40,245 nt of DNA from a virus: positions 1 to 40,245 of the IMG/VR virus record IMGVR_UViG_3300045257_000135, one strand, 5' to 3'. The notes beneath the pieces were generated by a model. That model did no database searches and had not been told where the DNA came from. It was given only the letters and a program-made list of their open reading frames with translations. The position numbers and the translations under genes were made by a program. The stretch's first letter is position 1, and the number at the start of each line of letters is the position of its first letter. Shown here piece by piece: positions 1 through 40,245 of the stretch.

Positions 1-129
1 TCGGGTGAGGTGATCCTCCGACCGGAGGTAGTCGCGAATCTCGCCCTTGATACGCCACCAAGCGTAGGAGCCGAAGGCGCCACCACGGGCAGGGTCGAAG
101 TCGTGTGCGGCCTTCGTCAGCCCGAGTAG
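1..129. repeat. terminal direct repeat, left copy
   Basis: Bases 1-129 match 40117-40245 with a single difference (T at 127, C at 40243). The change is synonymous in the sigma factor (CTA versus CTG leucine). The repeat sits inside one continuous reading frame, so it marks a circular assembly overlap or a circularly permuted genome rather than a functional terminal repeat. Confidence 0.95.
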
Positions 130-237
130 GCCGGCGCCTCGCACGTCCTCCCACATTTCGCGTCCGGCGAAGCTAGGGAAGCAACGCGCCATGACGTTGT
201 TGACGATCTTCATGTGGTCACGCGTCAGTTCGACCAT
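1..237 (-). CDS. phage sigma-70 family factor, N-terminal part (split by contig junction)
   Basis: This is the N-terminal 79 codons of a 186-residue sigma factor that continues at 40116 down to 39793 once the circular contig is joined. The translated stretch carries a clear region 2: GLLGLTKAAHDFDPARG, then GSYAWWRIKGEIRDYLR, the pattern of group 3 sigma factors (FliA, WhiG, SigB). The role would be to bind host core RNA polymerase and direct it to a dedicated promoter class. The ATG at 237 lies 2 nt after the TAG of the small membrane protein gene (240-242), so translation is probably coupled; no independent ribosome site is evident. Because it lies last before the packaging and head genes in transcription order, late-gene activation is the likely task (inference). 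Family assignment is confident; target promoters are not identified. Confidence 0.85.
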   Translation of the reverse strand, partial: MVELTRDHMKIVNNVMARCFPSFAGREMWEDVRGAGLLGLTKAAHDFDPARGGAFGSYAWWRIKGEIRDYLRSEDHLTR

Positions 238-239
238 GG

Positions 240-359
240 CTAGGTGAGGGACGCGAACAGGACGAAGCCGACGCCGACGGTCGCACCGATGAGCGGGGCT
301 CCGCAGATGGCGCCGACGAGGGCACAGAAGATGATGAGGGTGAGCGCAACGGGGTTCAT
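240..359 (-). CDS. small single-span membrane protein
   Basis: A 39-residue protein starting MNPVALTLIIFC and consisting almost wholly of small hydrophobic residues, so it is one or two short membrane segments with no soluble domain. The start ATG at 359 is chosen because it follows AAAGGAT with a short spacer; a longer open frame upstream lacks a ribosome site and overlaps the HNH gene. Its stop almost touches the sigma factor start. The function is unknown; small membrane proteins of this type are common in actinophage early units. Confidence 0.6.
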   Translation of the reverse strand: MNPVALTLIIFCALVGAICGAPLIGATVGVGFVLFASLT

Positions 360-4078: not shown

Positions 4079-5536
4079 GTGATGAACACATTACCCTCGG
4101 AAGCTATGAACGCGGCCACCACTGAGCTTACGATGGACGGCTACATACGCGTGTCCCGCGTCATGGGTCGCGAGGGTGAGAGCTACATCTCACCCCACGT
4201 CCAACGCGAAGCCATCGAGAGGTGGGCCGAGTACAAGGGCGTCACCATCGCCGAATGGCACACCGACGAGGACCGGACCGGCGGGAACCACGACCGCCCC
4301 GGACTCACGCGAGCCGTCGCCCGCTGCCTTGACGGGGACACGGGCGGGATCGTCTCGTGGAAGATCGACCGTTTTTCGCGCCACACGGAAAGCGGGCTCC
4401 GCGACCTCGAGCGCTTGAGCGCCGCCGACGCGCGCCTTGCCTTCGTGGTGGAGGACATCGACACAAGCGGGCCAATGGGCCGATTCGTCTACACGATCAT
4501 GCTTGCCATGTCGACGTACTTCCTTGACCAGATCAAGGCCGGGTGGGTCACCGCTAAGGAGAGGGCGCACGCACGCGGGGCGAAGGTCGGCCCCACCCCG
4601 TTTGGCTACCGACGCGACGACGGCGGGGCGCTCTACGTCCACGAGGACGAGGCGGCCATCGTCCGAACGGTCTACGAGTACGCGGCGCGGGATGACCTCG
4701 GAGGGGCGGCCGACTTCCTCACCGGGCTCGTCATCCGTCACGACGGCGACGGGAAGCGCGCGGGGCAGGCGCGAACCTGGACGACCTCCACCGTCCGCCG
4801 GCTCGTCGGCCAACGCATCTACCTCGGGGACCTCGTCTACGAGGGGATGGAGGCGCAGCACTTCGACTCGCTCGCGATCGTCGGGCGGGCGGGATGGGAG
4901 GCGGCGCAGGCGCACGAGGCCCGGAGGCGTAAGCCGTCGCGAGACTTCCCGCTGTCCGGTATCGCGACGTGCGCCCAGTGTGGGGAAAACCTCGTGGGCG
5001 CCTCGGGCGGCAAGGGCCAGCGCACGTACCGTTGCCGCGCATCCCTCAAGTCATGGAAAGGCGAACGATGCGCCGAACCGACGAACGTCACCGCCACGCT
5101 CCTTGAGGAACACGTCCGGACCATCCTCGCCGACGCCCTCGGCACCGGCGAATGGGTCCGCTCCGAAGACACCGGGGACCTAGACGCCGCACTCTCCGCG
5201 CTCGAGGCCCGTGAGTCCGAGCTAGCCGAGTTCGTCGCCGACACGCAAGGCGCCGCGACCCTCCGACGCCTCGGGCTCTACAACTCCACGCTTGAGGCTC
5301 ACGCCACCGCCGTAGAGGAAGCCCGCGCCCTCGTGCAGTCCCTCGCGCGGGAGACGGCGGGCGAACTGTCCATGTCCCCGAGCGAACTGCTCGCGAGCGA
5401 CGACCCCGAAGCCCTAGCCCTCGTCGCGGGGCTGGTGCTCGACGGGCTTTCGGTTGCGCGCGGCAGGACGCCGCTTGCGGGGCGAGTCACGGTCACCGTC
5501 GCGCCACTCCCAATGCCCGCCGTGGCGGCTACGTAG
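4079..5536 (+). CDS. int: large serine recombinase (phage integrase)
   Basis: A 485-residue serine integrase. The catalytic domain opens GYIRVSRVMG with the nucleophile Ser near residue 26 (counted from the GTG), followed by WKIDRFSRH and the conserved arginines. A recombinase domain follows (GAKVGPTPFGYRRDDGGAL), then a zinc ribbon with Cys-x2-Cys near 298-301 and two more Cys near 318 and 330, and a coiled coil around 370-425 (LDAALSALEARESELAEF) typical of this family. It should join attP and attB to form the prophage. Start is uncertain: GTG 4079, ATG 4082, ATG 4109-4111 and ATG 4133 are all possible and none has a strong ribosome site. Confidence 0.95.
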   Translation: MMNTLPSEAMNAATTELTMDGYIRVSRVMGREGESYISPHVQREAIERWAEYKGVTIAEWHTDEDRTGGNHDRPGLTRAVARCLDGDTGGIVSWKIDRFSRHTESGLRDLERLSAADARLAFVVEDIDTSGPMGRFVYTIMLAMSTYFLDQIKAGWVTAKERAHARGAKVGPTPFGYRRDDGGALYVHEDEAAIVRTVYEYAARDDLGGAADFLTGLVIRHDGDGKRAGQARTWTTSTVRRLVGQRIYLGDLVYEGMEAQHFDSLAIVGRAGWEAAQAHEARRRKPSRDFPLSGIATCAQCGENLVGASGGKGQRTYRCRASLKSWKGERCAEPTNVTATLLEEHVRTILADALGTGEWVRSEDTGDLDAALSALEARESELAEFVADTQGAATLRRLGLYNSTLEAHATAVEEARALVQSLARETAGELSMSPSELLASDDPEALALVAGLVLDGLSVARGRTPLAGRVTVTVAPLPMPAVAAT

Positions 5537-8919: not shown

Positions 8920-9152
8920 GCGTACCAACCCCTCAACACGTAGGCCCGATCCGCGAGCGTCGAAATGACGTTCGCCTTGTGATCCAACTCCCGCTCAAGC
9001 TCCGCGATCCTCTGCTGAAGCTGCCTCACAAATCTTGCGTCTGACGCAAGAGTCGGGCGAGCCGCGGGGAACGGTCGGATCTGACAGCCCGTGGCCTCAG
9101 TGGGGCTGGAAATGGCCGCAGACGGGCAACCCTGCCCCTCGCACCGGATCAC
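8916..9152 (-). CDS. hypothetical coiled-coil protein carrying an internal operator
   Basis: A 78-residue protein with GTG start at 9152 overlapping the upstream stop. An N-terminal part with two Cys is followed by a coiled coil (FVRQLQQRIAELERELDHKA). Family unknown. Its coding sequence contains the perfect palindrome CTTGCGTCTGACGCAAG at 9034-9050, described separately. Confidence 0.5.
   Translation of the reverse strand: MIRCEGQGCPSAAISSPTEATGCQIRPFPAARPTLASDARFVRQLQQRIAELERELDHKANVISTLADRAYVLRGWYA
9034..9050. promoter_or_regulatory. intragenic operator-like palindrome (site O6)
   Basis: CTTGCG-TCTGA-CGCAAG has the same arm length and N5 spacing as the promoter operators, with G/C in place of A/T at the inner arm position. 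No -10 box lies 17 bp from either internal TTGCGT, so it appears not to be a promoter operator. It lies in mid-operon. Confidence 0.5.
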
Positions 9153-12464: not shown

Positions 12465-12511
12465 CTTGCGTTTCGTGCAAGACGATACGGGGTACTTGCA
12501 GAATATGCAAG
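12465..12511. promoter_or_regulatory. tandem operators O4/O3 and leftward early promoter
   Basis: O3 is CTTGCA-GAATA-TGCAAG (12495-12511); O4 is CTTGCG-TTTCG-TGCAAG (12465-12481), 30 bp apart centre to centre. Leftward -35 TTGCAT (12510-12505), 17 bp, -10 TATCGT (12487-12482) matches the SSB promoter in both boxes. The XRE-type gene begins on the other side, so its product is the obvious candidate to bind here. Confidence 0.75.
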
Positions 12512-12561: not shown

Positions 12562-12870
12562 ATGCCGCAACCCGAAACCCAATCGCTCATGGAACGCTTC
12601 CTAGTGGCCGTGATCGAAGACCGAATGCGAGTCGCAGGCATCACGCCCGCCGACCTCTCACGGCACCCCGAGTTCACGCGCAGCGAAGCGACCCTTAGCC
12701 GCGTCCTCGCCGGCCGAATCAAATCCCCCAACGGCGGATGGGATGACTTCGTGGGCGACGTAGGGGCCGCCCTGGACGAGTCACCGCTAGCCCTTTGGGC
12801 CGACGCACTAGAACTCTGGCGCGCCGACCCGAAGGGAATAACGCTTCGCCGACGGCTACGCGGCGACTGA
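12562..12870 (+). CDS. XRE-type helix-turn-helix protein, candidate immunity repressor
   Basis: A 102-residue protein opening MPQPETQSLMERFLVAVIED. Residues about 22-60 fit a lambda-type helix-turn-helix: RVAGITPADLSRHPEFTRSE, TLSRVLAGRIKSPNGGW, then DDFVGDVGAALDESPLALW. There is no peptidase-like C-terminal domain, so it is not a self-cleaving repressor. The gene faces the replication operon across the two operators O3 and O4, the position expected of an immunity repressor. The ATG has no strong ribosome site; an in-frame ATG at 12505 lies inside O3 and is less likely. That it binds all CTTGCA palindromes is inference. Confidence 0.65.
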   Translation: MPQPETQSLMERFLVAVIEDRMRVAGITPADLSRHPEFTRSEATLSRVLAGRIKSPNGGWDDFVGDVGAALDESPLALWADALELWRADPKGITLRRRLRGD

Positions 12871-28358: not shown

Positions 28359-29392
28359 CAGGCGATGTCCCCGACGAGCACCCACACGTCCGTGGCGCGC
28401 TTGCGCAGCGCGGCCGAGGACCACTGGTTCGCGATCGTCCGAGAGGTCGTCCCCGCGGCCTCCAGGCGGTTCGGGATCGTGACCCCGGAGCCGTCCGTGA
28501 TCGTGACCGACCCGGCGCCGATGCGGCAGATTTCGATCACGGTGCCGACGGGGAACGCGACCGACGAGTTCGGCGGGATCGTCACCACGGTCGCCGAGGC
28601 GGAGTTCATCTCGATCGTCTTGCCCGCGTCGCCAAGGACGAGCGTGTAGCTGCCCGTCTGCGTGTTTGCGGTGATCGTCGTGTCCGCGAGCGTGCGGGCG
28701 GCGGCCTCGGTCGCGATGCCGCCCGCCGCCTCAAACGCCGAGGATGGCTGCGTCGCCGCCGATCCGAGCCCCAGGTTCGTTCGCGCCGTACCGGCGTTCG
28801 CGAGATCCGAGAGGTTCGCCGACTTCTGCGCGGCCTCCGAAGCTACCTCAGCCAGCGCGGCCTGTGCGTCGGTCGCCGCGATCGTCCCCACGGGGGTGAC
28901 CGTGACCGAACTCGCAGCCACACTTCCCCCCGAAGGGGGCGCTGCAAGGGTCCCGTCGTCCCGGACGAACTTCGTGCCATCCGGCGTGCCCGACGCGAGG
29001 TTCGCGATCGGCACGAGCGACAACCCATTCAGTGGCGCCACGCCATTGGCCGCACCCTTCGCCGTCGTCGCGATGGCGCCAATGTCGGCCGGCGAAAGAA
29101 CGTCGCTACCGCCAGTCGCGTGAGACGACTTATGAGCGGTTGGCGTCCGAGCATCCGAGAGGCGCGAATCGGCCGTCACCACAGCCGTGCCCGTGATCTT
29201 CGCCGGGGAAAGCGTGGTCGCGATCTTCGCGTCCGTAACGCTCGCGTCAGCCGGCGTGCGCGCATCGCTCAGACGAGCGTCCGCGGTAACGACTGCGGTA
29301 CCGGCGATCTTCGCCGGGTTGATGGCCGCACCGCTCGCAACCTTGATGTCGGTAACGGAACCGTCGGGCGGCTCGGGGAATGTGGAGGTCAT
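28358..29392 (-). CDS. repeat-containing fibre protein
   Basis: A 344-residue protein. Two near-identical repeats in the first 90 residues (PAKIAGTAVVTADARLSDAR and PAKITGTAVVTADSRLSDAR) precede TAHKSSHATGGSDVLSPADI, a motif common in phage tail-fibre shafts. A helical section (AALAEVASEAAQKSANLSDL) and a beta C-terminus with TNTQTGSYTLVLGDAG-like strands (TGSYTLVLGDAGKTIEMNSA) complete it; the last part is a typical trimeric fibre tip. It should be a receptor-binding or decoration fibre. Confidence 0.75.
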   Translation of the reverse strand: MTSTFPEPPDGSVTDIKVASGAAINPAKIAGTAVVTADARLSDARTPADASVTDAKIATTLSPAKITGTAVVTADSRLSDARTPTAHKSSHATGGSDVLSPADIGAIATTAKGAANGVAPLNGLSLVPIANLASGTPDGTKFVRDDGTLAAPPSGGSVAASSVTVTPVGTIAATDAQAALAEVASEAAQKSANLSDLANAGTARTNLGLGSAATQPSSAFEAAGGIATEAAARTLADTTITANTQTGSYTLVLGDAGKTIEMNSASATVVTIPPNSSVAFPVGTVIEICRIGAGSVTITDGSGVTIPNRLEAAGTTSRTIANQWSSAALRKRATDVWVLVGDIA

Positions 29393-30252
29393 CGGGACCG
29401 CCTCTCCGCGCGCCCGGCGGGCGCCTTAGCCTCGCCACGCACACGGGCAAGCTCCGCATCCACGCACGCAACCTGCTCCGGGGTGCCGGTCCGCACGTAG
29501 CCCTCACGCTCAACCACAAGGCCCTTGATGTACGCCTCACGCTGTTCCGTGGTCTGCATTTCAAGCCCCTCAATGTTCAGGTCGTCGCGCGTCGCGTAGT
29601 AGTCGCGGGATTCCTTCGCCCGCCACAAATCGCGCTGCCCGTTCCGATGCTCGAGCCGAACCGTGGTGAAGTCCTCGGCGGGCTCAAGGTTCTCTTTGCC
29701 CCAGAGGAAACGACCGTCCGGGGTGACGTACGTGTAATGGTTCCCGACCACGGAAAGCCCGCGGATGGCGCGGAACATGACCCGGATCGTCTGCGACTCC
29801 ACAAGGGGTGTGACGAACGGCCGCTCAGAGGGGTGGTAAAGGTCCCTGTGCTTCCACAAGGTGACTTCCCCTACGTCACGCCGCGCCTCGGCAACTCGCG
29901 CCCGCAGATCGCCCCCAGTGTCAGTAACCACCTCATCGCCGTCGATGACGAAGTACCAATCCTCGGAGGTCGTCGCGCATTCGCCGAGCCGGAACATGGT
30001 GGACCGCTTCTCGGTTTCGTTGCCGGCCCATCGCTTCTGCGGCTCGTGGATGGTGCATCCCATGTTCAGGGAGCGCGCCGTCTCGCGGATCGCTTCGGCC
30101 TGATCGGTTCCGGAGTGTGCCCGGCCACCGGGGTAGAGGAAGTACGCCCCGTCCACGGCAACGATGTGGTCACAGAACGGCTGCATGGACGCGACGGTTG
30201 CCGCGAGCCACCCGGGCTTTTCCTGATACCAACTCAGTAGGCCGCAGATCAT
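29389..30252 (-). CDS. GT-A-type glycosyltransferase
   Basis: A 287-residue protein. MICGLLSWYQEKPGWLAATV and DHIVAVDGAYFLYPG form the nucleotide-sugar-binding start of family 2-like enzymes, and WYFVIDGDEVV gives the metal-binding D104-G-D106. The rest includes RVMFRAIRGLSVVGNHYTYV, the acceptor side. It should transfer a sugar from a nucleotide donor. Lying between an acyltransferase and a fibre gene it probably decorates a virion protein or masks the host surface receptor; which one cannot be told. Confidence 0.8.
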   Translation of the reverse strand: MICGLLSWYQEKPGWLAATVASMQPFCDHIVAVDGAYFLYPGGRAHSGTDQAEAIRETARSLNMGCTIHEPQKRWAGNETEKRSTMFRLGECATTSEDWYFVIDGDEVVTDTGGDLRARVAEARRDVGEVTLWKHRDLYHPSERPFVTPLVESQTIRVMFRAIRGLSVVGNHYTYVTPDGRFLWGKENLEPAEDFTTVRLEHRNGQRDLWRAKESRDYYATRDDLNIEGLEMQTTEQREAYIKGLVVEREGYVRTGTPEQVACVDAELARVRGEAKAPAGRAERRSR

Positions 30253-30734
30253 GCGTCGTAGTCGGGCATCTGCCCGTTGACGCGACAGTCGGGCAGGGTG
30301 GCGGTGTGCAGGCGCCGTGCGGGGTTACCTGCCCACGTCTCCCCCGCCGGCACGTTCTTCGTGACCACGGACCCAGCGCCGATCCGCGCCCCCGCACCGA
30401 CCACGATCCGCGGGAGGATGGAGGCGTTCACGCCGACCTTCACGCCGTCGCCGAGCCGCGCAAAGCCGCAGATCACGGCGCCCGGGGAAACCTCACAGTC
30501 GGCCCCGATCACCGCGTCGTGCCCAACGTGCGCGTGCTTCATAAGCCACGTCCGCGGACCCACGTAGGTGCTGACCTCGAGCCCGCCATCAACAGTGACG
30601 TACGCCTCAACGCGCGCGGTGTGATGAATGCTCGGCGTGTACGTCGGGTCCCACGGACGCCATTCGCGCCCTTCGGGTGCGTGGCCGATCACCGCTGTCT
30701 GGTCGATACCGCCGCCAAATGTGTGTGTGGTCAC
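30249..30734 (-). CDS. left-handed beta-helix (hexapeptide) acyltransferase
   Basis: A 161-residue protein. Hexapeptide repeats run from about residue 35 to 140: IHHTARVEAYVTVDGG, HAHVGHDAVIGADCEVSPGA, VKVGVNASILPRIVVGAGAR, IGAGSVVTKNVPAGETWAG then NPARRL, the exact ending of sugar O/N-acyltransferases. A His in the VGHDAVIG turn is a candidate catalytic base. It presumably acetylates the sugar that the next gene's enzyme handles. GTG at 30734 follows GGAGGG; the longer frame starting at a TTG is less likely. Confidence 0.85.
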   Translation of the reverse strand: MTTHTFGGGIDQTAVIGHAPEGREWRPWDPTYTPSIHHTARVEAYVTVDGGLEVSTYVGPRTWLMKHAHVGHDAVIGADCEVSPGAVICGFARLGDGVKVGVNASILPRIVVGAGARIGAGSVVTKNVPAGETWAGNPARRLHTATLPDCRVNGQMPDYDA

Positions 30735-30760: not shown

Positions 30761-30831
30761 TGCGGCGCCGGGGGAATCGAACCCCCGCGAACTGCCCATT
30801 GCGCCGCCAACTGCTAGAAGCTCGGCGCCGC
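30761..30831 (-). other. tRNA-like element (acceptor and T arm without anticodon arm)
   Basis: On the minus strand GCGGCGCC (30831-30824) pairs with GGCGCCGC (30769-30762), and between them lies GGGGG-TTCGATT-CCCCC, a perfect T arm with consensus T loop (30786-30770) set directly against the 3' acceptor strand. The remaining 37 nt contain AGTTGG as in D loops but cannot be folded into a 5-bp anticodon stem with a 7-nt loop. The 5' part overlaps the end of the capsid gene. A decayed tRNA or a folded terminator that mimics one are both possible. Confidence 0.45.
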
Positions 30832-32175
30832 GAGGCCCGTGCCGGAAATGACCGTCACAGCCTTCGGAAGCCGACCCGCCATAAAGGCGTAGTAGTTGTA
30901 CAGCTGGAAACGCACCTGAAGGGTGCCCGAAAGCACCTCAGTGAGCATCCGGACTCGGGGGCTCTCGCCCTCCCAGAACTTCACCTCGTCGGTACGGAGG
31001 ACCGTCACAACGTCCTCGTTCGTGCCGGCGCCGTTCGTGGTCGGAACGGACGCATCGGCAATCACCGGGAGCGCCTGCATCGAACCGACAAGCGCCTCAG
31101 ACGCCACACGGTCCGCGAGGCCCGCCGCGTTGAACCCGGGCTGACCCGAGGGCACCACAAGCGGACGGTTCTGCGAATCGAGGGACGCGAGGATCCACGC
31201 CCACCGAAGCGGATGCATGATGACGAGGTTCGGGGTGCGGAACACGTTGGTGTGAATGTCCGCAATGGCCCCGGCGAGCTTCGGGTAAAACAGCGGCACC
31301 GTGGGCGAACCCGAGGTGAAGGCCCGCGAGTTCGTGCCCGAAACCTGAAGCAGGCCCTTGGCGTTCGTCACAGCGCCGTTGAGCACGAGAGAGTCAATCT
31401 TCGTGTCGTAGGCGCGGGTGATGTCGTCCCAAATGACCCGCTCGATGCCAGGGTTGGAAAAGTCCACAAGCTGCATGGACACGTCCTGCTGACCCGCGAC
31501 CGTCTGCACCGCCGCCGTGACGATGGTGTCCGTCAGGTCGGTAGAGGACACGGAACCGCCATCCGTCTGGACCGCGACGGTGGTACCCGTGGCGACCTTC
31601 GGAATGTTGATCGTGTCGGTACCGGCCGGGAGGGGCTGGGCGCCGATCGCGTCCGCGGTGGGGCGGTGCGCGCGCGGGAGGCCAATCCACTCCTCCTGAA
31701 GGTAGATCGGCGGGACGAACTGTCCGCCGGTACCGTCAGAGATGTTCAGCGCACGCGCCCCGACCCGGGGGTTGTGCTGGTCGACCATCTGCCGGCCGTG
31801 CCGCTCAAGGCGCTCACGGGCGGCGGTGTCGCCGTGGTGCTCGGCGTGGGCCATGTCCCGGAAGAACGTGGGCGCGTCGCGGTGACGGGGCTTCTCGTAG
31901 GTGAGTTCCGTCTCAGTGACTCGGAGGCTTCCGGCGGGCGCGGTGCGCTCGGCGGGCTCCTCAATGGCGGCCGGAAGCGAGGCCTTCGCAGCCTCGAGCG
32001 CGGTCCGCTGGTCGAACGCCTTGAGGGCGTCGGCGTGTGCCGTCTCGGCGGCCGTAAGCTCGGCGGATCGCTCCGCGTGAGTCTCGTCGGTCGCGGCCTC
32101 AAACGCCGTGAGTGCGGCGTCCCATCGCTCCGTTGCGGCGACGATGGCCGCGCGAAGCTGTGCAAGGGTCTTCAC
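30814..32175 (-). CDS. HK97-type major capsid protein
   Basis: A 453-residue protein. The first 65 residues are coiled coil (LAQLRAAIVAATERWDAALT), equal to the scaffolding delta domain that is cut off. The mature fold then appears: PPIYLQEEWIGLPRAHRPTA, TINIPKVATGTTVAVQTDGG, QQDVSMQLVDFSNPGIERVI, FRTPNLVIMHPLRWAWILAS and the end FQLYNYYAFMAGRLPKAV. The GTG at 32175 is selected because AAGGAGG lies 8 nt upstream. It forms the icosahedral shell. Strong order: portal, protease, capsid. Confidence 0.95.
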   Translation of the reverse strand: MKTLAQLRAAIVAATERWDAALTAFEAATDETHAERSAELTAAETAHADALKAFDQRTALEAAKASLPAAIEEPAERTAPAGSLRVTETELTYEKPRHRDAPTFFRDMAHAEHHGDTAARERLERHGRQMVDQHNPRVGARALNISDGTGGQFVPPIYLQEEWIGLPRAHRPTADAIGAQPLPAGTDTINIPKVATGTTVAVQTDGGSVSSTDLTDTIVTAAVQTVAGQQDVSMQLVDFSNPGIERVIWDDITRAYDTKIDSLVLNGAVTNAKGLLQVSGTNSRAFTSGSPTVPLFYPKLAGAIADIHTNVFRTPNLVIMHPLRWAWILASLDSQNRPLVVPSGQPGFNAAGLADRVASEALVGSMQALPVIADASVPTTNGAGTNEDVVTVLRTDEVKFWEGESPRVRMLTEVLSGTLQVRFQLYNYYAFMAGRLPKAVTVISGTGLAAPSF

Positions 32176-32200: not shown

Positions 32201-32926
32201 CTAGGGCGTGCGTGCCCCAGCGCGACGACGCTTCGCTTGTTCCACCCGTGAGGCGTGGGCGATGGCGTCAGTCGGATTGGTGACCACCTCTGAAGGTGCG
32301 TCACCCTCGGAGCCCGTTGCCGGCGCTCCGTCCCTACCTTCGGCCCATCCGGGGATGCGACCTGAAGTTTTGGCGTCCTCAAAGCGGGATGCGCGGAGCA
32401 TCGCTAGGGACGAGTCTGCCTGCGGGTATGCGCCCCGCCCGGCAACGGTCACGTCGTACAGTTCGCCGATTTCCTCAATGGTGGCGGTAACTGTTTCGGT
32501 GCCGTCGGCGTTCTCAACAATCTCCCACCGTTCGCGCTCGATGGTGAACATGAACGACGCCCCGGTGATGTCTCCGCGCTCCATGAGCACGCGGAGGTCC
32601 GCGGCGTAGGAGGTCGGCGCGACGCGGCACCAGTAGTGGAGGCCCTGCGGCGTCTCGCGGAGTTCAAGGGTGCCGTTGGCGGTGTTGCCGAGAATCCATC
32701 GGGTGTCGTGATCCCAGTCGGCGAGCACGGACGGGTTGCGGTCGAGCACGTTCTTGAAAGCGCCCGGGTCGATCTTCTCGCGGAAGCCGCCGAGGTCGAG
32801 CGACAGGCGGTTGAACACGGCTGCGTGCCCGCGGATGGTGTACGACCCGTCCCCGGCGCCACTGTCGCGCACCTCAACGTTCTCGAGGGGGGCGATGATG
32901 CCGGATCGGCGCTCAATCATTTTCAT
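32201..32926 (-). CDS. HK97-type prohead protease
   Basis: A 241-residue serine protease of the S78 type. YTIRGHAAVFNRLSLDLGGF starts the fold, DWDHDTRWILG gives the catalytic His near 73, DITGASFMFTIE gives the Ser near 124, and GELYDVTVAGRGAYPQ supplies the third motif. A Gly/Glu/Arg-rich tail (about 195-241) is probably self-cleaved. It removes the delta domain of the capsid protein during maturation. ATGA overlap with the portal gene. Confidence 0.9.
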   Translation of the reverse strand: MKMIERRSGIIAPLENVEVRDSGAGDGSYTIRGHAAVFNRLSLDLGGFREKIDPGAFKNVLDRNPSVLADWDHDTRWILGNTANGTLELRETPQGLHYWCRVAPTSYAADLRVLMERGDITGASFMFTIERERWEIVENADGTETVTATIEEIGELYDVTVAGRGAYPQADSSLAMLRASRFEDAKTSGRIPGWAEGRDGAPATGSEGDAPSEVVTNPTDAIAHASRVEQAKRRRAGARTP

Positions 32927-34173
32927 GCGTCAGTCTCCGATGGCTCAACCGCGTCAGGGTTCGCGCCCGGTTGTAGGTTTGGCGCCCCGCCAACGGGCGT
33001 GGACTGGTACTCGTCGCCTGCCGGCCCGATGCCGGGCTCGTTTTCCTTGCGGCGAATGTCATTGACGCTTAGCCACCCCGCCTGCCGCGCCTGAAGGTAG
33101 GCCGCGTACCGGGCTGCAAGCTCGGCGCGCATCAAGCCTTCGACTAGGAACTCAGCCCCGAGGGACTTGTCCGGGAACAGGTCGTCATCGGCCACGATCG
33201 CCTGCTCAAACCCGACCGTCTCGGGAAGGATTGAGTACCGCACGAGGTCTTCCGACCTCTGCTCGGGCGTGGCGCGCGGGTTGAGGTCTGTTCCGCCGAG
33301 GATCCAGGCGGGAAGCCCAATGACTCGTGCGGTCTGGTCAACGTTCCACCGCTGCGATTCAACGATCTGCGCGGCCTGAGCGTCTAGCCCAATCTGCTTG
33401 TAGGTGGCGCCACCGAACAGAACACCGGTCTTGTGCGCGTTCTTGGAGCCGCGGTGCCCGTCGTCCCAAACCTCTTTGGTGTCGCGGGCTACCTGCGTGT
33501 CCGCCCCGAACGGCATTTCGATCACGCCACCGGGGGTTGCGTCATTGGAGTAGAACCGGCCGGCGTACTCCTCCCCCGCGAGCGCCGCCCCGACCGCGTT
33601 AGCGGCCACGAGGATGGGCGAAACCCCGATGTAGGGGTCGTCCAGAAGCATCCCGGGAATGTGCAGAATGCTGTCCCGGTAGAGGGTGACTGCGGGCTCT
33701 GTGCCCTGCCGGACCTTGTACTCCATGACGCCGTCTACGCACTTCGGCGTGACGCGCGACGGGTGAAGAATGTAGAGCGCGAGAACTTCACCGGTCTTCG
33801 GGTGCTTCGCCTTCATAATGTAGGCGTTGCCGTGCGCGATCCGGTGGGCCGCAACCACACGCTTGAACGCGTACGGTGTCTGAATGTCGTTCGGCTTGTC
33901 GTGGAGTAGCCGCCACTGTGACGTTTCGCGGGCTCGCAGGCGTTCGTCTTCTACGTTCTGGTAGACGAGTAGCGGCAGGACCCCGAGGATTTCGGCCTTG
34001 ACGGTGATCGCGCGGAGCATTGCCGGCAGTCCGACGGAGCTAGCGGCGGACACGCGTCGGCCAGAGTTGCTGAAGCTGCCTGTTTCCTGCGAGGGCATCG
34101 GGATTACGTCGGTGCCCCCGAACATCTGCGAGCGGATCTGAACGGTTCCGCCGCCGGGCGTGCGGATAATCAT
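32923..34173 (-). CDS. portal protein
   Basis: A 416-residue HK97-type portal. GLPAMLRAITVKAEILGVLP, then LVYQNVEDERLRA, VVAAHRIAHGNAYIMKAKHP, YILHPSRVTPK and SILHIPGMLLDDPYIGVSPI are all classic. It forms the dodecameric gate for DNA packaging. ATG at 34173 overlaps the upstream TGA; a longer frame exists but would run into the preceding gene. Confidence 0.93.
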   Translation of the reverse strand: MIIRTPGGGTVQIRSQMFGGTDVIPMPSQETGSFSNSGRRVSAASSVGLPAMLRAITVKAEILGVLPLLVYQNVEDERLRARETSQWRLLHDKPNDIQTPYAFKRVVAAHRIAHGNAYIMKAKHPKTGEVLALYILHPSRVTPKCVDGVMEYKVRQGTEPAVTLYRDSILHIPGMLLDDPYIGVSPILVAANAVGAALAGEEYAGRFYSNDATPGGVIEMPFGADTQVARDTKEVWDDGHRGSKNAHKTGVLFGGATYKQIGLDAQAAQIVESQRWNVDQTARVIGLPAWILGGTDLNPRATPEQRSEDLVRYSILPETVGFEQAIVADDDLFPDKSLGAEFLVEGLMRAELAARYAAYLQARQAGWLSVNDIRRKENEPGIGPAGDEYQSTPVGGAPNLQPGANPDAVEPSETDA

Positions 34174-34893: not shown

Positions 34894-36531
34894 CTACCAA
34901 AACGCCGCGCCCGGCTTCGGCGCCGGGGTGATAGACAGCGCGCGCGCCATCAGAAGGGCAACGCAAGCGTCGATCGGCGGCCCGGACTCCTCCGCTTTGC
35001 CGACACGGAACGCGCCAGGGCCAACGTCGATCGCCGAAGCCGCTTCGACATGAGCGCGGAGGATCGGGTCCCCGTCGTGCGCCCATGCGGCCTCGATGAT
35101 TTCGGTTCGGGCGTCGCCCGCGGCGGGGCACATGCGCTCCGGTGACTGCGGGAACTGCACCATCGCCAGCCCTTCGCCCGTGAGGGTTTCGGCTGCCTGA
35201 TCGAAGTACTTGGGGTCCCACCCGACGGCCATGAGCCGGTACCCGCTGTTGAGGTCGCGCAGGGCGTCCATGACGGGCGTGTACTCAATGGGTTGGTCGG
35301 TTCCACCGGAGCGCCAAATGAGGGCGCGTACGATCGGATTGAGGTCACCCCTTGGGAAGACAAGGCCGACGGCCGCGCAGTCCCGGTAGCGGGCCATATC
35401 GACCGCTGCGTACACCTCGTCGCCGAGTCCCCCCATGGCGGCGATGCACTCGCGGATTTCGTCGCGCGTGGCGCCTTCCCAGGTGCGATGTTCGACCACG
35501 GGTACGGTGTCGTCGTACATCTTCTGCCAGGACCCGCCGGGGATCCATGACCGGAAGGCGAGCGTCCAGACGTTGCATCGCCAGCGGAGGAAGTCCCATG
35601 TGGTGATGCCGGGCGCTTCGCGGGCGTCGCGGAGACTGTCGGGGGTGACGAAGCTCGCGGGGTTGGCGAGTTTGACCACCCTCATGTCGTCGGGGTCGTC
35701 TGCTGGCCCGAGTCCTTCGGTGCCGTCGCGGAGCGCCCATTGCAACATGACGTTGCGGCCGGTCGCCGTGGTCGCGATGGTGAGGCGGCCGTCCCCTTGC
35801 TCGGGGTTCCCTTCGCCGTTGATGACGAGGGCGTGTTGGATGGTGCCGCCCTTTTGCTCTACGGCTAGGAACTGTGCGCGTAGCTGTCCAAGCACACCGT
35901 TGATGTTGTGGCCGGCGGTGGAGATGACGGCGCAGATTCCGGACTCAAGGCCGATTTCGGGCCGCTTGCCCTTGAACACGGCGGACCGGAGCGCCACGTA
36001 AATGCTTGTGTTCTCGTGGGCGTGTAGCTCGTCAATGAGGGCGAGCGTCGGCGAGTAAGAGTGCTTCTTGCCCTTGCCGCGTGACTTGTCGGAGGCGAGG
36101 ACGCGAATCTTGCCGGTGCGCCGCCCCGTTTTGGGGTCGGGACGCAGGGTGATGACCCGCATGGATTCGGCGATGTTGACCATGCGCCGAATGGAGGGCT
36201 TCGACTCGCAGAAGTGCTGCGCGAATCGGAACATTTCGGTCGCCTGCTCGAGGTCCGCGGCCGCAATGAACACCTGCGGTGACGGGACGGTGAGGAGGTG
36301 GAAGACCGAGAGGCCCGCCATGATGGTCGTCTTGCCGTTGCCCTTGGGGAGCAACGTGAGGAGTTCGACTAGCCCGGTCCGGAAGATGGTCCGGAGGATG
36401 AGTTTGGCGTATCCCTCTAGGAGTACGGGGCCGCCTTCGGGTAGGTCGAACTGCTGAATGAACCAGACGCAGTCTTCGTAGCACCACGCGAGCTTGCCGC
36501 TACGTGTCCTCTTGGGGCGTGTCGCTTGCAT
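34894..36531 (-). CDS. terminase large subunit
   Basis: A 545-residue packaging motor. Walker A is LPKGNGKTT (61-69), an adenine-side motif follows, and Walker B is LALIDELHAH with D167-E168. The C-terminal nuclease domain starts near residue 375 (VYAAVDMARYRDCAAVGLVF) with Asp residues again at AVGWDPKYFDQAAE and GPPIDACVALLMARAL. It pumps and cuts concatemeric DNA. The start overlaps the end of the methyltransferase C-part by 32 nt. Confidence 0.95.
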   Translation of the reverse strand: MQATRPKRTRSGKLAWCYEDCVWFIQQFDLPEGGPVLLEGYAKLILRTIFRTGLVELLTLLPKGNGKTTIMAGLSVFHLLTVPSPQVFIAAADLEQATEMFRFAQHFCESKPSIRRMVNIAESMRVITLRPDPKTGRRTGKIRVLASDKSRGKGKKHSYSPTLALIDELHAHENTSIYVALRSAVFKGKRPEIGLESGICAVISTAGHNINGVLGQLRAQFLAVEQKGGTIQHALVINGEGNPEQGDGRLTIATTATGRNVMLQWALRDGTEGLGPADDPDDMRVVKLANPASFVTPDSLRDAREAPGITTWDFLRWRCNVWTLAFRSWIPGGSWQKMYDDTVPVVEHRTWEGATRDEIRECIAAMGGLGDEVYAAVDMARYRDCAAVGLVFPRGDLNPIVRALIWRSGGTDQPIEYTPVMDALRDLNSGYRLMAVGWDPKYFDQAAETLTGEGLAMVQFPQSPERMCPAAGDARTEIIEAAWAHDGDPILRAHVEAASAIDVGPGAFRVGKAEESGPPIDACVALLMARALSITPAPKPGAAFW

Positions 36532-36907
36532 CCGTGCCCCCTTGGAGGTGCTGAATCAGGCGGCGCCCGATCCATTCCGCTACCGGCTTGACCACTCCGT
36601 CACCACATGCGGCGTAGCGCGGCCCGTCGGGCGGGTGCTTGCCGTCGCGGGGTTCCTCGATGACGGTCCAGTCGTCGGGCCAGCCCATGAGGCGTTCGCA
36701 CTCCGTGGGCGTCAGTCGCCGCACTCCGTGCCCGATCCTCACCGCTGCGTAGCCCTGCCCGGGCTTGCCCCCGCCCTTTGTGAGCGACCCTGAGATAGGA
36801 GATTCCACGAGCTCACCCCTCTGGTTCTCCGCGAACATCTGGGGGGCTGACGATGAGGTGTCCGCCGGCTGCGCCTTCGGCGTCGATTCGGTATCCACGT
36901 TTCCCAC
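36500..36907 (-). pseudogene. cytosine-5 DNA methyltransferase, C-terminal part
   Basis: A 135-residue frame beginning at GTG 36907. It contains ENQRGELVESPISGSLTKGG and GYAAVRIGHGVRRLTPTECE, RLMGWPDDWTVIEEP and RYAACGDGVVKPVAEWIGRR, which are the end of the target domain and motifs IX and X of m5C methyltransferases. It is in the same frame as the segment ending at 36926, divided from it by one TGA. AAGGCG lies close before the GTG, so re-initiation is possible, making it a beta subunit, but loss of function is as likely. Confidence 0.7.
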
Positions 36908-36925: not shown

Positions 36926-37264
36926 TCACGTCACGATGATGTGACCCGCCTGCGCCGAGTTGTCGTCTACCCCCCCCCGCTGTTTATCGAGGGTTCCGAC
37001 GATCCGGGGCTCTATGACGAAGTCTTCGCCCTCAGCGTCGATTCGCCCCCCTGGTGAGTGTGCGAGCGTTTCGAGCGCCATCCGCAACCGAACCGGCAAC
37101 ACCCGACCGCGCTTCGCTGCGCGGCGCAGGATGCCCGCCGCCGCCCGCGAACTCAAGAAGAATCTCGGGTGGGCATTCGCCTCCAAGATGTGCGACAACG
37201 AAGACTCGACGGCGGCGTTGGGGCACTCCGAAGTGTTGAGCGTCGAGAAGTCGCCAGACGGCAC
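36926..37264 (-). other. second open frame across the methyltransferase (middle segment)
   Basis: This frame is open from 37699 to 36926. Its last 40 codons (GEDFVIEPRIVGTLDKQRGG then VDDNSAQAGHIIVT) continue the methyltransferase beyond the stop of the N-terminal part, after a shift at the C6 run 37046-37051. Its earlier part (TLNTSECPNAAVESSLSHIL, FFLSSRAAAGILRRAAKRG) lies in a different frame on the very bases that code methyltransferase motif VIII. A GTG at 37264 is the best start if it is translated alone. Confidence 0.4.
36970..36978. repeat. C9 homopolymer inside the methyltransferase
   Basis: Nine C on the plus strand (G9 in the coding direction), read as CGG GGG GGG GTA. Such a run can slip in replication and change the reading frame, or be miscounted in sequencing. 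Confidence 0.85.
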
Positions 37265-37730
37265 CGCCCCACGGACCGGTGACCACACCTGCGCTTGCCC
37301 ACCCCCCGGCGGGAACATCGACGGTTGCGCCCACGAAGGCACCCAAGATGAGTGCGAAGTCCAAGCCTTTGTTGCTGGATAGAGCGCCTGCGACGTTCTC
37401 CCATATGCACCATTCGATGCTTCGTGCATGGCGCACCCGTATGTAGTCGAAGAACAGGCCCGAGCGTGCCCCGTCGAGCCCCGCGCGTTTGCCGGCGTGA
37501 CTGAGGTCTTGGCAGGGTGTCCCGCCAATAAGCACGTCAGCTTCAGGAAGGTCGGCAGGGTCAAGCGTCGTGAGGTCGGGGAAGATCGGAACACCGGGCC
37601 AGTGATGCGCGAGCACCTTCCGTCGCCACGGGTCCGCCTCGCAGAACGCGACGGTTTGGAAGCCCGCTGCGTCCATGCCTTGGTCAAACCCGCCAACACC
37701 CGAGCAGACCGAGATAACCCTTGGCTTCAC
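37032..37730 (-). pseudogene. cytosine-5 DNA methyltransferase, N-terminal part
   Basis: A 232-residue frame with motif I SVCSGVGGFDQGM (7-19), motif IV GGTPCQDLS with the catalytic Cys73, motif VI WENV (110-113) and motif VIII FGVPQRRRRVFVV (167-179). It ends prematurely at 37032 in an Arg-rich tail. Together with the segments at 36926 and 36500 it makes about 410 codons, the normal length of such enzymes, so the gene is interrupted by one frameshift and one stop. A split enzyme of the M.AquI kind, where motifs I-VIII and IX-X lie on two chains, is the alternative. GTG at 37730 follows GGAGGG. Confidence 0.75.
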
Positions 37731-37750
37731 GCGCCCTCCAACTTTCTTTG

Positions 37751-37796
37751 TGTCTAGCGCTTGACAGGTGCGCGGAGGGTGTCTATAACTAGACAC
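37751..37796 (+). promoter_or_regulatory. consensus promoter with TGTCTA operators, leaderless start
   Basis: -35 TTGACA (37761-37766), 17 bp, -10 TATAAC (37784-37789), then 7 nt to the ATG at 37797: the best promoter in the window, giving a leaderless mRNA. GTGTCTA-TAAC-TAGACAC (37779-37796) is a perfect palindrome over the -10; TGTC at 37751 with GACA at 37763 forms a second, weaker site over the -35. Confidence 0.85.
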
Positions 37797-37979
37797 ATGG
37801 ACGCCACCGCAACTCCCGCCCGCCGCTACTACGACAACATTGCAGCGCTGCGCAAGGGCAAGATCACGCCCGATGAGTACCGCGCCGCAAACCGCGCTAT
37901 GCGCGACGAGTTCGGCGAGGACGGATACGAAGCCGCGAAGCTCAAGGCCATCTGCTTTGACATCAACGCCAACGGTTAG
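37797..37979 (+). CDS. small hypothetical protein, leaderless
   Basis: A 60-residue protein: MDATATPARRYYDNIAALRK, then GKITPDEYRAANRAMRDEFG. It is helical and charged, ending DINANG. It begins at the transcription start and its TAG is followed at once by the ATG of the helix-turn-helix gene, so both come from one short transcript. Not recognised; the gene pair lies opposite to the late genes and is likely expressed from the prophage. Confidence 0.65.
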   Translation: MDATATPARRYYDNIAALRKGKITPDEYRAANRAMRDEFGEDGYEAAKLKAICFDINANG

Positions 37980-38171
37980 ATGGCGGACATACGGGCCGAA
38001 CTCGCCGATGCGGCGCGTCGTAAGGTAGACGCCGAGTCCGCACGCGCCGAGGCCATTGCGGACATCACGCGCCTTTTGAGGTCACGTCGCAGCACGGATA
38101 TTCCCGTTGCCGAACTCGCGCGCCTCTCGGGCGTGACGCGACAGACGATCTACACGCTCAGAAGCAACTAG
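37980..38171 (+). CDS. small helix-turn-helix regulator
   Basis: A 63-residue protein. The first half is a charged helix (IRAELADAARRKVDAESARA); the second is a helix-turn-helix, DIPVAELARLSGVTRQTIYT then LRSN, of the resolvase/Cro type. It probably binds the TGTCTA palindromes of its own promoter. Its end overlaps the small terminase end by 4 nt. It may be a second control switch separate from the CTTGCA system. Confidence 0.7.
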   Translation: MADIRAELADAARRKVDAESARAEAIADITRLLRSRRSTDIPVAELARLSGVTRQTIYTLRSN

Positions 38172-38554
38172 AGCAGGCCCCCGAGGTCGTCCCCGTCCTC
38201 GCTTGATGCTGTGGTCGCGTCGATCCCGAGACGGGACCTAGCCGACGGTGTGAAGCCAAGCTCCTTGAGCGCGTCCACGTAGGACTTCTCAGCCCCGTCC
38301 GCGGTCTTCAGGTTCGGGTGTTGGACAAGCTGCCCTTTGTACCCGCGCTCCACCAGGGTTGGCCGACCGTCCTCGTCCACCATGCCGGCACGTGCAAGTC
38401 GAGCGCGTTGTGACCACCTACACGCCTGAGCTAGCATCTCCCTGTCTGAGTCGTGCCAGCGGCCGAACTCCCGGAGGTACTTGCGGAGCTTGTAATATAA
38501 AGCCTTCGCTGTGCGGTCCAGGTCGCTCGGGGCGGTGGTTGGGTCGGTAGGCAC
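38168..38554 (-). CDS. P27-type terminase small subunit
   Basis: A 128-residue protein. SDREMLAQACRWSQRARLAR, then LVQHPNLKTADGAEKSYVDA and LKELGFTPSARSRLGI are the conserved blocks of the P27 small terminase family, which recognises the packaging site and hands DNA to the large subunit. GTG at 38554 has GGAGG 9 nt upstream; an ATG nearer the GGAGG is in another frame. It lies apart from the large subunit by the methyltransferase and the small HTH unit. It is the first late gene after the sigma factor, two small genes and the protease. Confidence 0.8.
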   Translation of the reverse strand: MPTDPTTAPSDLDRTAKALYYKLRKYLREFGRWHDSDREMLAQACRWSQRARLARAGMVDEDGRPTLVERGYKGQLVQHPNLKTADGAEKSYVDALKELGFTPSARSRLGIDATTASSEDGDDLGGLL

Positions 38555-38836
38555 CTCGCATCGCCTCCACGGGCCTGCTAGACCCCTCTGCGGGCCTGTC
38601 TGTGTGTGGCTTTGGGCAGGCGAATACCCGACAGCACCCGAACGAGGTGCGGCCAGGGGAAACCCTAAACCCTGTCGCCATAAAGGTATTTCCAACACGC
38701 AACCGGTGGGTTGCGCTCAAAAGTGAAGCGTTTTCGTGCAGACTTGGCGGGTGAACTCACCACCCTTGTGTGATGTCTGATCCCCCCCCCGTCACACTTC
38801 TCGGGGTGGTCGGGGTGTGTCATCGGTCACGTCTGT
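38555..38836. other. long control region before the late genes
   Basis: About 280 bp without a supported gene. It holds the hairpin CGCAACC-GGTG-GGTTGCG (38698-38715), the AT-richer segment CCATAAAGGTATTTCC (near 38679), a C9 run at 38782-38790 and GTGTGA/TCACAC inverted bits around it. It is the natural place for late promoters (leftward) and packaging site; no exact promoter could be assigned. Confidence 0.5.
38782..38790. repeat. C9 homopolymer in the late control region
   Basis: Nine consecutive C between the divergent terminase and protease genes, the second such run in the window. Its length may vary between copies and alter promoter spacing, or be a sequencing uncertainty. Confidence 0.8.
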
Positions 38837-38866
38837 GTTGCGTTTCGTGCAAGGCGTGCGTACGGT
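38837..38866 (+). promoter_or_regulatory. operator-controlled leaderless promoter of the protease (site O5)
   Basis: GTTGCG-TTTCG-TGCAAG (38837-38853) is a two-mismatch form of the phage operator and shares 16 bases, TTGCGTTTCGTGCAAG, with O4. -35 TTGCGT (38838-38843), 17 bp, -10 TACGGT (38861-38866), then 7 nt to ATG 38874. Confidence 0.65.
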
Positions 38867-38873
38867 GGTGCCC

Positions 38874-39362
38874 ATGTTGAGGGTCGCTACCGTGGTGGTG
38901 TGTCTGACGGTGTGTGTCGCGTCGCCGGCTGAGGCTGCGCCTTCACATTCGTCGTGGTTTGATCGTGCGGTGGCGGTGGCGGACGCGCATTGGCCGTTGT
39001 CGCCTTGCCATGGTCGCGTGAGCGTGGTGTCTGCTACGGATGAGCAGATCGTGGCGTGGACGGGCGAGGCGTCAGCGGGTGCGGGTGCGTCCGTGGATGG
39101 GTCGTGCCGTGTGTTTGTGGCGTGGGACTTGTGGTCTGCTCGTCCGGTGCGTCAGCGTTGCCGCTTGCTTGAGCATGAGTTCGGCCACCTTGCGGGTGTT
39201 GACCATTCACTGAACCCGGCGTCGGTGATGTTCCCTGTGATCCTTGATCTTGGGCGGGGCAGTACGGATTGTGTGCGTGCGTTCCCTGAGCGCAGGGCGT
39301 GGCCGATGTTCGACACGTTGCCGGACTGGCGTGCGCTCGCGCTGGACAGGCTCACGCTTTAG
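38874..39362 (+). CDS. secreted metzincin-type metalloprotease
   Basis: A 162-residue protein. Residues 1-22 are a signal peptide (LRVATVVVCLTVCVASPAEA, cut likely after AEA). The zinc site is HEFGHLAGVDH with H101, E102, H105 and H111, and SVMFP with Met119 is the Met-turn: the full metzincin signature, closest in style to matrixins and small archaemetzincin-like forms. Four cysteines in the mature part (45, 78, 96, and near 130) could form two disulphides. It has no prodomain. Codon choice, with many GTG, TGT and GCG codons, differs from its neighbours, suggesting separate origin. It would be exported by the host cell; target unknown. Confidence 0.8.
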   Translation: MLRVATVVVCLTVCVASPAEAAPSHSSWFDRAVAVADAHWPLSPCHGRVSVVSATDEQIVAWTGEASAGAGASVDGSCRVFVAWDLWSARPVRQRCRLLEHEFGHLAGVDHSLNPASVMFPVILDLGRGSTDCVRAFPERRAWPMFDTLPDWRALALDRLTL

Positions 39363-39594
39363 TGGCGTGCCATTCCTCAAAGGGGCCACACTGAACACGG
39401 TACGCACCGGGGCGTTCCCAACCGTCGGAGAACTCTGAGCCTGCCCATGAGTCAGCAGGGATGACTTCCGCGACGTAGAGCGTGGTCGGCTCGGGCTTGT
39501 CGAGCTTGATGTATCGCTCGTGCATGCTCGGCCTGCGCTTGGCGTGCGACCACTTGCCGCATGCGTGGCAACGCCAGAGGACTTCAGTTGCCAT
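39352..39594 (-). CDS. small hypothetical protein with one Cys knuckle
   Basis: An 80-residue protein: MATEVLWRCHACGKWSHAKR, then a beta-rich stretch (EPTTLYVAEVIPADSWAG) and an aromatic end (YRVQCGPFEEWHATKA). One C-x2-C plus a later Cys may hold zinc. Start ATG 39594 lies inside the end of the previous gene; its end overlaps the end of the protease gene by 11 nt. Not recognised. Confidence 0.55.
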   Translation of the reverse strand: MATEVLWRCHACGKWSHAKRRPSMHERYIKLDKPEPTTLYVAEVIPADSWAGSEFSDGWERPGAYRVQCGPFEEWHATKA

Positions 39595-39796
39595 AGTGCA
39601 ACCACAGCGCAGGCAGTTCGTCGGCGTGCGAGTTACCCGGATTGAGGGCAGTCGCGGCGAATGCGCCACGGACAAACGAATCATCGGGTACGACAATCGT
39701 AGCCCATTCACTTACGCGCGCTAGGTGCGCCTCAATGTCCGTACGGAAGCCGTCTTCCTCGTGTCCGGGGAACCTCATATCGCACGGCCTGTTCAT
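39584..39796 (-). CDS. small hypothetical protein (70 aa)
   Basis: MNRPCDMRFPGHEEDGFRTD, then HLARVSEWATIVVPDDSFVR. ATG at 39796 overlaps the sigma factor TGA (ATGA), so it is translated with it. Mixed fold, no motif recognised. Confidence 0.55.
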   Translation of the reverse strand: MNRPCDMRFPGHEEDGFRTDIEAHLARVSEWATIVVPDDSFVRGAFAATALNPGNSHADELPALWLHYGN

Positions 39797-40245
39797 GCCG
39801 CATCCATCACGGCCGGCGCCAGCATCACACGCAAACGATCATGCCCAGCCTTACGAAGCTGCGACACACGCGACTCCGACACATCAAGCACGCTCCCAAT
39901 ATGGGCCAACGTCTCGCCCTCAATGTCGTGCTGCCACACCGAATAGAACTCGCGCGGCGGAAGGTTGATGACCGTGGCCTGGATCGCGTCCGCGTCGCAA
40001 AGCGCTGCGTACTCGTCCGCCGGGTCAGCCGCGCACTCCGCGTACTTCTGCATGTCAAGCCAACCGGGCATGCCGGGGTCTTCCATCAACCCAGCCTGCA
40101 CCTTGCGGCGCTCAGATCGGGTGAGGTGATCCTCCGACCGGAGGTAGTCGCGAATCTCGCCCTTGATACGCCACCAAGCGTAGGAGCCGAAGGCGCCACC
40201 ACGGGCAGGGTCGAAGTCGTGTGCGGCCTTCGTCAGCCCGAGCAG
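39793..40245 (-). CDS. phage sigma-70 family factor, C-terminal part (split by contig junction)
   Basis: The continuation of the sigma factor from position 1-237; bases 40117-40245 repeat 1-129. After region 2 and LTRSERRKVQAG (a short remnant of region 3), a 40-residue linker leads to region 4: NLPPREFYSVWQHDIEGETL, then AHIGSVLDVSESRVSQLRKA, GHDRLRVML, with the -35-binding helix-turn-helix in SESRVSQLR. At 186 residues it is shorter than FliA (about 240) because region 3 is almost absent. It retains both core-binding and promoter-binding parts, so it should be active. The next genes in its direction are two small genes and, after the protease, the small terminase. Confidence 0.85.
   Translation of the reverse strand: MLGLTKAAHDFDPARGGAFGSYAWWRIKGEIRDYLRSEDHLTRSERRKVQAGLMEDPGMPGWLDMQKYAECAADPADEYAALCDADAIQATVINLPPREFYSVWQHDIEGETLAHIGSVLDVSESRVSQLRKAGHDRLRVMLAPAVMDAA
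40117..40245. repeat. terminal direct repeat, right copy
   Basis: Second copy of the 129-bp end overlap, identical to bases 1-129 save for C at 40243. It closes the circle and restores the sigma factor reading frame. Confidence 0.95.

Follow-up and report, generated by a model that had tools for sequence, protein, structure and literature searches.

A phage sigma factor related to FliA and WhiG, reduced to regions 2 and 4 and encoded at the boundary between early and late genes

The stretch of DNA analysed here, referred to as the window, is a viral record of 40,245 bases whose two ends carry the parts of a single gene. Positions 1-129 and 40117-40245 are the same apart from one synonymous mismatch at position 127, three bases before the end of the repeat. 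This terminal overlap of 129 bp fits circular assembly of the record into a closed circle of approximately 40,116 bp and, because it falls within coding sequence, is more likely to represent an assembly overlap than a biological terminus. The open reading frame that crosses the join is on the minus strand, beginning with an ATG at 237, running to position 1 and then from 40116 to a stop at 39793, and encodes 186 amino acids. Residues 1-79 (1-237) contain regions 2.1-2.4 and the start of region 3.0 of a sigma factor, while the larger share of the gene, at the opposite end of the contig (39793-40245), encodes the last part of region 2, then a short linker where region 3 would be expected, and then region 4. 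An identical frame is obtained by either way of joining the ends, in agreement with the first-pass annotation, which had proposed that the joined ends encode one 186-residue protein. The frame has a codon score of 0.174 per codon, within the range of the other phage genes (0.16-0.34), compared with a mean of -0.47 (sd 0.28) for shifted frames. This phage-like codon usage indicates that it is a genuine sigma-70-family gene and not a chance ORF.

Matches to Pfam Sigma70_r2 (residues 28-75, E=2.6e-10) and Sigma70_r4 (residues 131-175, E=2e-6) both exceed the curated cut-offs, with no Pfam match to region 3 in the 186-residue protein. The top-scoring of 49 NCBIfam models was FliA_WhiG (81.3 bits, E=8e-23, a score well below the family cut-off of 189.6), and a profile search of the genome matched positions 2-83 and 166-223 of this model, leaving positions 84-165, which correspond to region 3, unmatched. 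These results agree with the original description of a FliA/WhiG-like sigma factor that has both region 2 and region 4 but hardly any of region 3. The score of 81 bits against FliA_WhiG, compared with 64 bits for the general sigma70-ECF superfamily model, places the protein closer to group 3 than to the ECF factors; its architecture, with sigma2 and sigma4 alone and a short linker between them, resembles that of the ECF or group 4 factors. In an alignment with other phage sigmas the signature for core binding and promoter melting (GLxxA..FD..F.SYA.WRI.GEI.DYLR) is kept intact, and divergence is high in region 4 and in the linker. The best solved-structure matches to the sequence are FliA and WhiG. 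An AlphaFold2 model of residues 37-186 (13 sequences, mean pLDDT 75.5) gave confident helices for region 4, a fair prediction for the part of region 2 covered and a linker with pLDDT below 50. When this model was searched with Foldseek the top match was WhiG of Streptomyces venezuelae, and the matches listed were sigma factors or complexes containing them. TM-scores were low because the domains are differently arranged, so the fold match backs the domains alone. From these sequence matches the ORF is predicted to be an initiation factor of the sigma-70 family, a relative of FliA/WhiG that has been cut down to sigma2 and sigma4.

Genes in the surrounding region were assigned from PHROG matches. 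The terS, terL, portal, head protease, major capsid and tail genes occupy the minus strand from 38.5 kb downwards, with exonuclease, RecT, primase, helicase loader and SSB genes beyond them in the same orientation. Once the record is closed into a circle, the early unit extends from 12.4 kb through position 1 to 39352, with the sigma gene near its distal end, and the late unit starts at terS (38554); the gene order therefore bears out the earlier claim that the sigma gene is at the end of an early unit, upstream of the packaging and head genes. The sigma gene is preceded by a gene for a 39-residue hydrophobic membrane microprotein (240-359, minus strand; TAGCCATG) that ends 2 bp before the sigma ATG, has its own Shine-Dalgarno sequence (AAAGGA) and has a codon score of 0.238. 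Its translation is probably coupled to that of the sigma factor, for which the microprotein might serve as a partner in the membrane or as an anti-sigma factor. On the other side, the ATG of a 70-residue ORF (39584-39796, minus strand; no Pfam match), which shares the transcription unit of the sigma gene, overlaps the sigma stop codon (ATGA). The close spacing at the sigma start and the overlap at its stop thus define a tightly packed unit, the final gene of which is an 80-residue ORF with a CxxC motif (39352-39594, minus strand) overlapping the end of the 70-residue ORF.

The sigma gene is located approximately 1.2 kb upstream of terS, separated from it by these two small ORFs, a protease gene on the opposite strand and a gap of approximately 320 bp. 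The protease gene (38874-39362, plus strand) sits between the early and late units and encodes a secreted metzincin-like protein of 162 residues with the motif HEFGHLAGVDH (Peptidase_M10, E=7.6e-5, slightly under the cut-off); a copy of the palindrome described below is found approximately 22 bp ahead of its start. The gap (38555-38873) is divergent, between terS on the minus strand and the protease gene on the plus strand, and is the candidate site for both a late promoter (minus strand) and a protease promoter (plus strand). The first late gene, terS (38168-38554, minus strand; phrog_83, E=3.8e-15), has a GTG start preceded by GGAGG and is followed on the same strand by terL (34894-36531), portal (32923-34173), head protease (32201-32920) and major capsid (30814-32175). 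Several other genes are interspersed in this region. Two small plus-strand ORFs (37797-38171), the second with a helix-turn-helix, are convergent with terS inside the minus-strand late unit. Matches to a C5 cytosine methyltransferase extend across two minus-strand ORFs (37032-37796 and 36500-36907), which may represent one gene that has been broken or interrupted. Between the capsid and tail genes (29389-30734, minus strand) are genes for a glycosyltransferase and an acyltransferase-like hexapeptide-repeat protein; homologues of both are found upstream of terL in L039, one of the terminase relatives considered below.

The phage is temperate, as indicated by a serine integrase (4106-5536, plus strand; PHROG), a repressor-like ORF and a palindromic operator. 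The repressor-like ORF (12562-12870, plus strand), recognised by its helix-turn-helix from reading of the sequence alone, is divergent from the early operon and faces the first early gene (12446, minus strand). Comparison of the gap ahead of the early operon with that ahead of terS revealed an exact 16-mer common to both (16/16, reached in none of 40 shuffles). The corresponding palindrome, TTGC-N7-GCAA, has six exact copies of 15 bp in the window (0.41 expected; 0 of 100 shuffles), at 1238, 3739, 9035, 12466, 12496 and 38838; the motif was derived from two of these copies, and the other four are independent of it. The copies at 12466 and 12496 lie in the interval that separates the repressor-like ORF from the first early gene, that at 9035 is inside the early region, that at 1238 is upstream of the genes leading to the sigma gene, and one copy is near ssb. 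The copy in the gap ahead of terS (38838-38852; TTGCGTTTCGTGCAA) is identical to that at 12466. TTGC-N7-GCAA is probably the operator of the phage repressor, judged by its sequence and positions. Its presence ahead of terS links the late region with immunity and is uninformative on the promoter used by the sigma factor itself. An actinobacterial host is plausible given a GC content of 65% and the many actinophages among phages with a similar integrase; a genome scan with terminase alignment found no prophage relative.

The FliA/WhiG promoter consensus, TAAA-N15-GCCGATAA, is not enriched in the phage (19 sites, versus 18.4 in shuffles). Region 3 contacts the extended -10 element of FliA promoters, and absence of enrichment is expected if a factor without most of this region reads another sequence. 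No promoter resembling the FliA/WhiG or the sigma-A type was detected near terS, and a search of 37600-40245 found no sigma-70-type promoters or intrinsic terminators. The first-pass annotation had suggested searching late start sites for a shared motif; pairwise comparison of gaps gave a single real repeat, the operator-like palindrome, and no motif that recurred ahead of several late genes. This palindrome was considered as the sigma promoter and rejected because it is operator-like and is also present at the immunity region. Computational prediction of the promoters of the phage 7-11 sigma factor likewise failed for its authors (PMC8948821). The position of the sigma gene before terS would suit a target in the adjoining gap, and the search of the rest of the late region revealed no large gap in which a shared promoter could be recognised. 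Both observations weigh against a reading in which the factor serves other phage genes, either the protease gene that diverges from terS or some late genes further in, for instance those for tail or lysis, with terS to capsid driven by host sigma-A or by read-through. The protease gene does, however, open onto the same gap close to the operator copy, and this reading gains further from the positions of related phage sigmas described below; we regard it as unlikely.

Relatives of the window sigma were sought in several ways. Peptide patterns found no close relatives in the viral and genome contigs. Alignment searches returned relatives only in L008 and in the contig listed as both L024 and L034, and further phage FliA-like sigmas were recovered with degenerate DNA patterns, among them one in the contig listed as both L029 and L037. 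The viral library contains many phage sigmas built in a similar way. No GenBank actinophage protein matched the window sigma at E <= 0.01, in keeping with the statement of the first-pass annotation that most actinophages of this layout have no recognisable sigma factor, although that statement has to be qualified for gp83 of KaiHaiDragon, a Microbacterium phage, which is annotated as a sigma factor (PMC6460016). Fecal 'phage' records with sigma matches (MT83...) were set aside, as those read resemble full-length bacterial sigmas.

In the sigmas of L008, L034 and L037 an alignment gap shows the same region 3 block to be absent as in the window sigma, with identities to the latter of 25-34% over regions 2 and 4. 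A 169-residue ORF in LR756511, an uncultured phage of 595 kb, matches the L008 sigma and is also short. These four carriers of short sigmas are unrelated phages with the gene at differing genome positions. In L008 (3513-4547, minus strand) the region-3-less sigma forms an in-frame fusion with a protein that carries a segment resembling a signal peptide. The short sigmas of L008, L034 and L037 are placed within late modules, that of L008 behind the portal gene and that of L034 ahead of a large putative tail gene; these positions argue for roles other than switching on the first late promoter. L035 and L036 have full-length sigmas, the genes for which precede terL in the same orientation. In L035, an unrelated phage, the FliA-like sigma gene is approximately 2.2 kb ahead of a terS-like gene, the placement seen in the window. 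In a FastTree phylogeny of regions 2 and 4, in which branches are long and support is weak, the short forms do not form one clade and L037 groups with the full-length L035 (0.90), hinting that region 3 has been lost more than once. The recurrence of the reduced form in one huge phage and in no fewer than three further phage contigs also bears on whether the window gene is a decayed or accessory one, a captured host sigma that has lost region 3 and no longer initiates alone. The missing region and the lack of a known target promoter would fit such decay. Against it are the intact 186-codon frame, the phage-like codon usage, the retained signature residues and the fact that sigma2 and sigma4 alone suffice in ECF factors and in Xpf (PMC10141391), and we consider decay very improbable.

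Among the best terminase relatives, L038, L039 and L043, no sigma was found in the sequenced parts. TerL identity to the window is 45% for L038 and 40% for L039; with the gene absent from their sequenced parts, these two phages use something else. A weak two-region sigma-like protein was present in one of 30 terminase-related records (L051), and the remainder had at most region-4-like helix-turn-helix matches, several at chance level. The sigma gene therefore appears to travel separately from the packaging genes. This lack of joint conservation would be compatible with a factor directed at the host, by which host polymerase is captured for host genes such as a WhiG-like developmental regulon or those for dormancy or motility. 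Its nearest relatives, FliA and WhiG, regulate flagella and actinomycete sporulation. Phage-encoded sporulation-like sigmas have been described that alter host dormancy (PMC9429907); the host-directed factors of that study are of the sporulation type found in Bacillota. The high divergence of region 4 and the linker and the loss of most of region 3 also count against a host-directed role, and the position at the early/late boundary suits a phage target better than a host one. A host-directed role seems to us improbable.

We consider a role in late-gene transcription the probable one for the window protein. It is favoured by the detection of regions 2 and 4, the intact signature, the gene order, the matching placement in L035, the position ahead of terL in L036 and the precedents of phage 7-11 and PBSX. 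Counting against it are the lack of an enriched FliA/WhiG-type promoter or of a recurrent late motif, the absence of the gene from the sequenced parts of L038 and L039, the 1.2 kb with two small ORFs and an opposite-strand gene that separate sigma from terS, and the late-module positions of other short sigmas. In a lysogen, the repressor would silence the early operon through the TTGC-N7-GCAA sites. After induction or infection, host polymerase would transcribe the early operon, reaching the sigma gene at its distal end, and the factor would be produced by translation coupled with that of the 39-residue membrane peptide. It may then bind the host core polymerase via region 2 and guide it to a single promoter, or a small number of them, within the gap at 38555-38873, so that terS, terL and the genes for head and tail would be turned on; the repressor in this scheme would be the product of the helix-turn-helix ORF, and the timing would follow from the place of the sigma gene in the early unit. 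A bolder and doubtful extension is that region-3-less FliA/WhiG sigmas are a recurrent phage invention, a phage-specific minimal class that here acts as a late switch gated by the lysis-lysogeny decision. In this doubtful reading, region 3 was deleted more than once from group 3 factors, giving an ECF-like architecture with FliA-like recognition, and the coupled membrane peptide possibly tunes the switch as an anti-sigma factor. If the factor is a late switch, a compact sigma and a target region of approximately 320 bp would be testable with purified parts, in a temperate, probably actinobacterial, phage lineage for which late control has yet to be described. The absence of region 3 from sigmas of unrelated phages opens the question of why group 3 sigmas need it.

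Phage-encoded late sigmas are an established kind of regulator, with examples in phages 7-11 and phiEco32, Xpf of PBSX and gp55 of T4, a phage late sigma. The window sigma gene is at the early/late boundary, the position of late activators such as Xpf, the gene for which is located between the PBSX early genes and terminase genes and the product of which drives the late operon. The 'distinct control scheme' of the first-pass annotation is thus overstated in view of 7-11 and phiEco32 (PMC8948821), Xpf (PMC10141391) and cyanophage P-SS2 (PMC2784084). Xpf (positive control factor), from a Bacillus subtilis prophage, is a sigma2-sigma4 factor listed in group IV (PMC10141391) and resembles the window sigma in being a small phage factor with these two domains alone; Xpf is classed with ECF-type factors whereas the window sigma scores best with FliA/WhiG. 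SaPh711_gp47 of phage 7-11 and gp36 of phiEco32 direct host polymerase to late promoters, those of 7-11 being dependent on gp47 (PMC8948821). These are lytic podoviruses in which the late role is proven, whereas it is proposed for the window sigma; gp36 is without region 4 homology and uses a single-element promoter, and the gp47 promoters are bipartite (GTAAtg-(16)-aCTA). The siphovirus P-SS2 encodes a group 3 sigma of approximately 214 residues (ORF 003) directly behind terL (PMC2784084). It resembles the window sigma, which is closest to group 3, in its place near terS/terL and in 28% identity in region 2, but it follows terL, and it aligns over region 2 and part of region 3, with region 4 unaligned. 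FliA (sigma-28) and WhiG are the best sequence and fold matches of the window sigma but retain region 3 and are approximately 240-280 residues long, and the window sigma scores 81 bits against their family cut-off of 189.6. What is less usual is the combination of a FliA/WhiG-like sequence with a two-domain ECF build, found across several unrelated phages.
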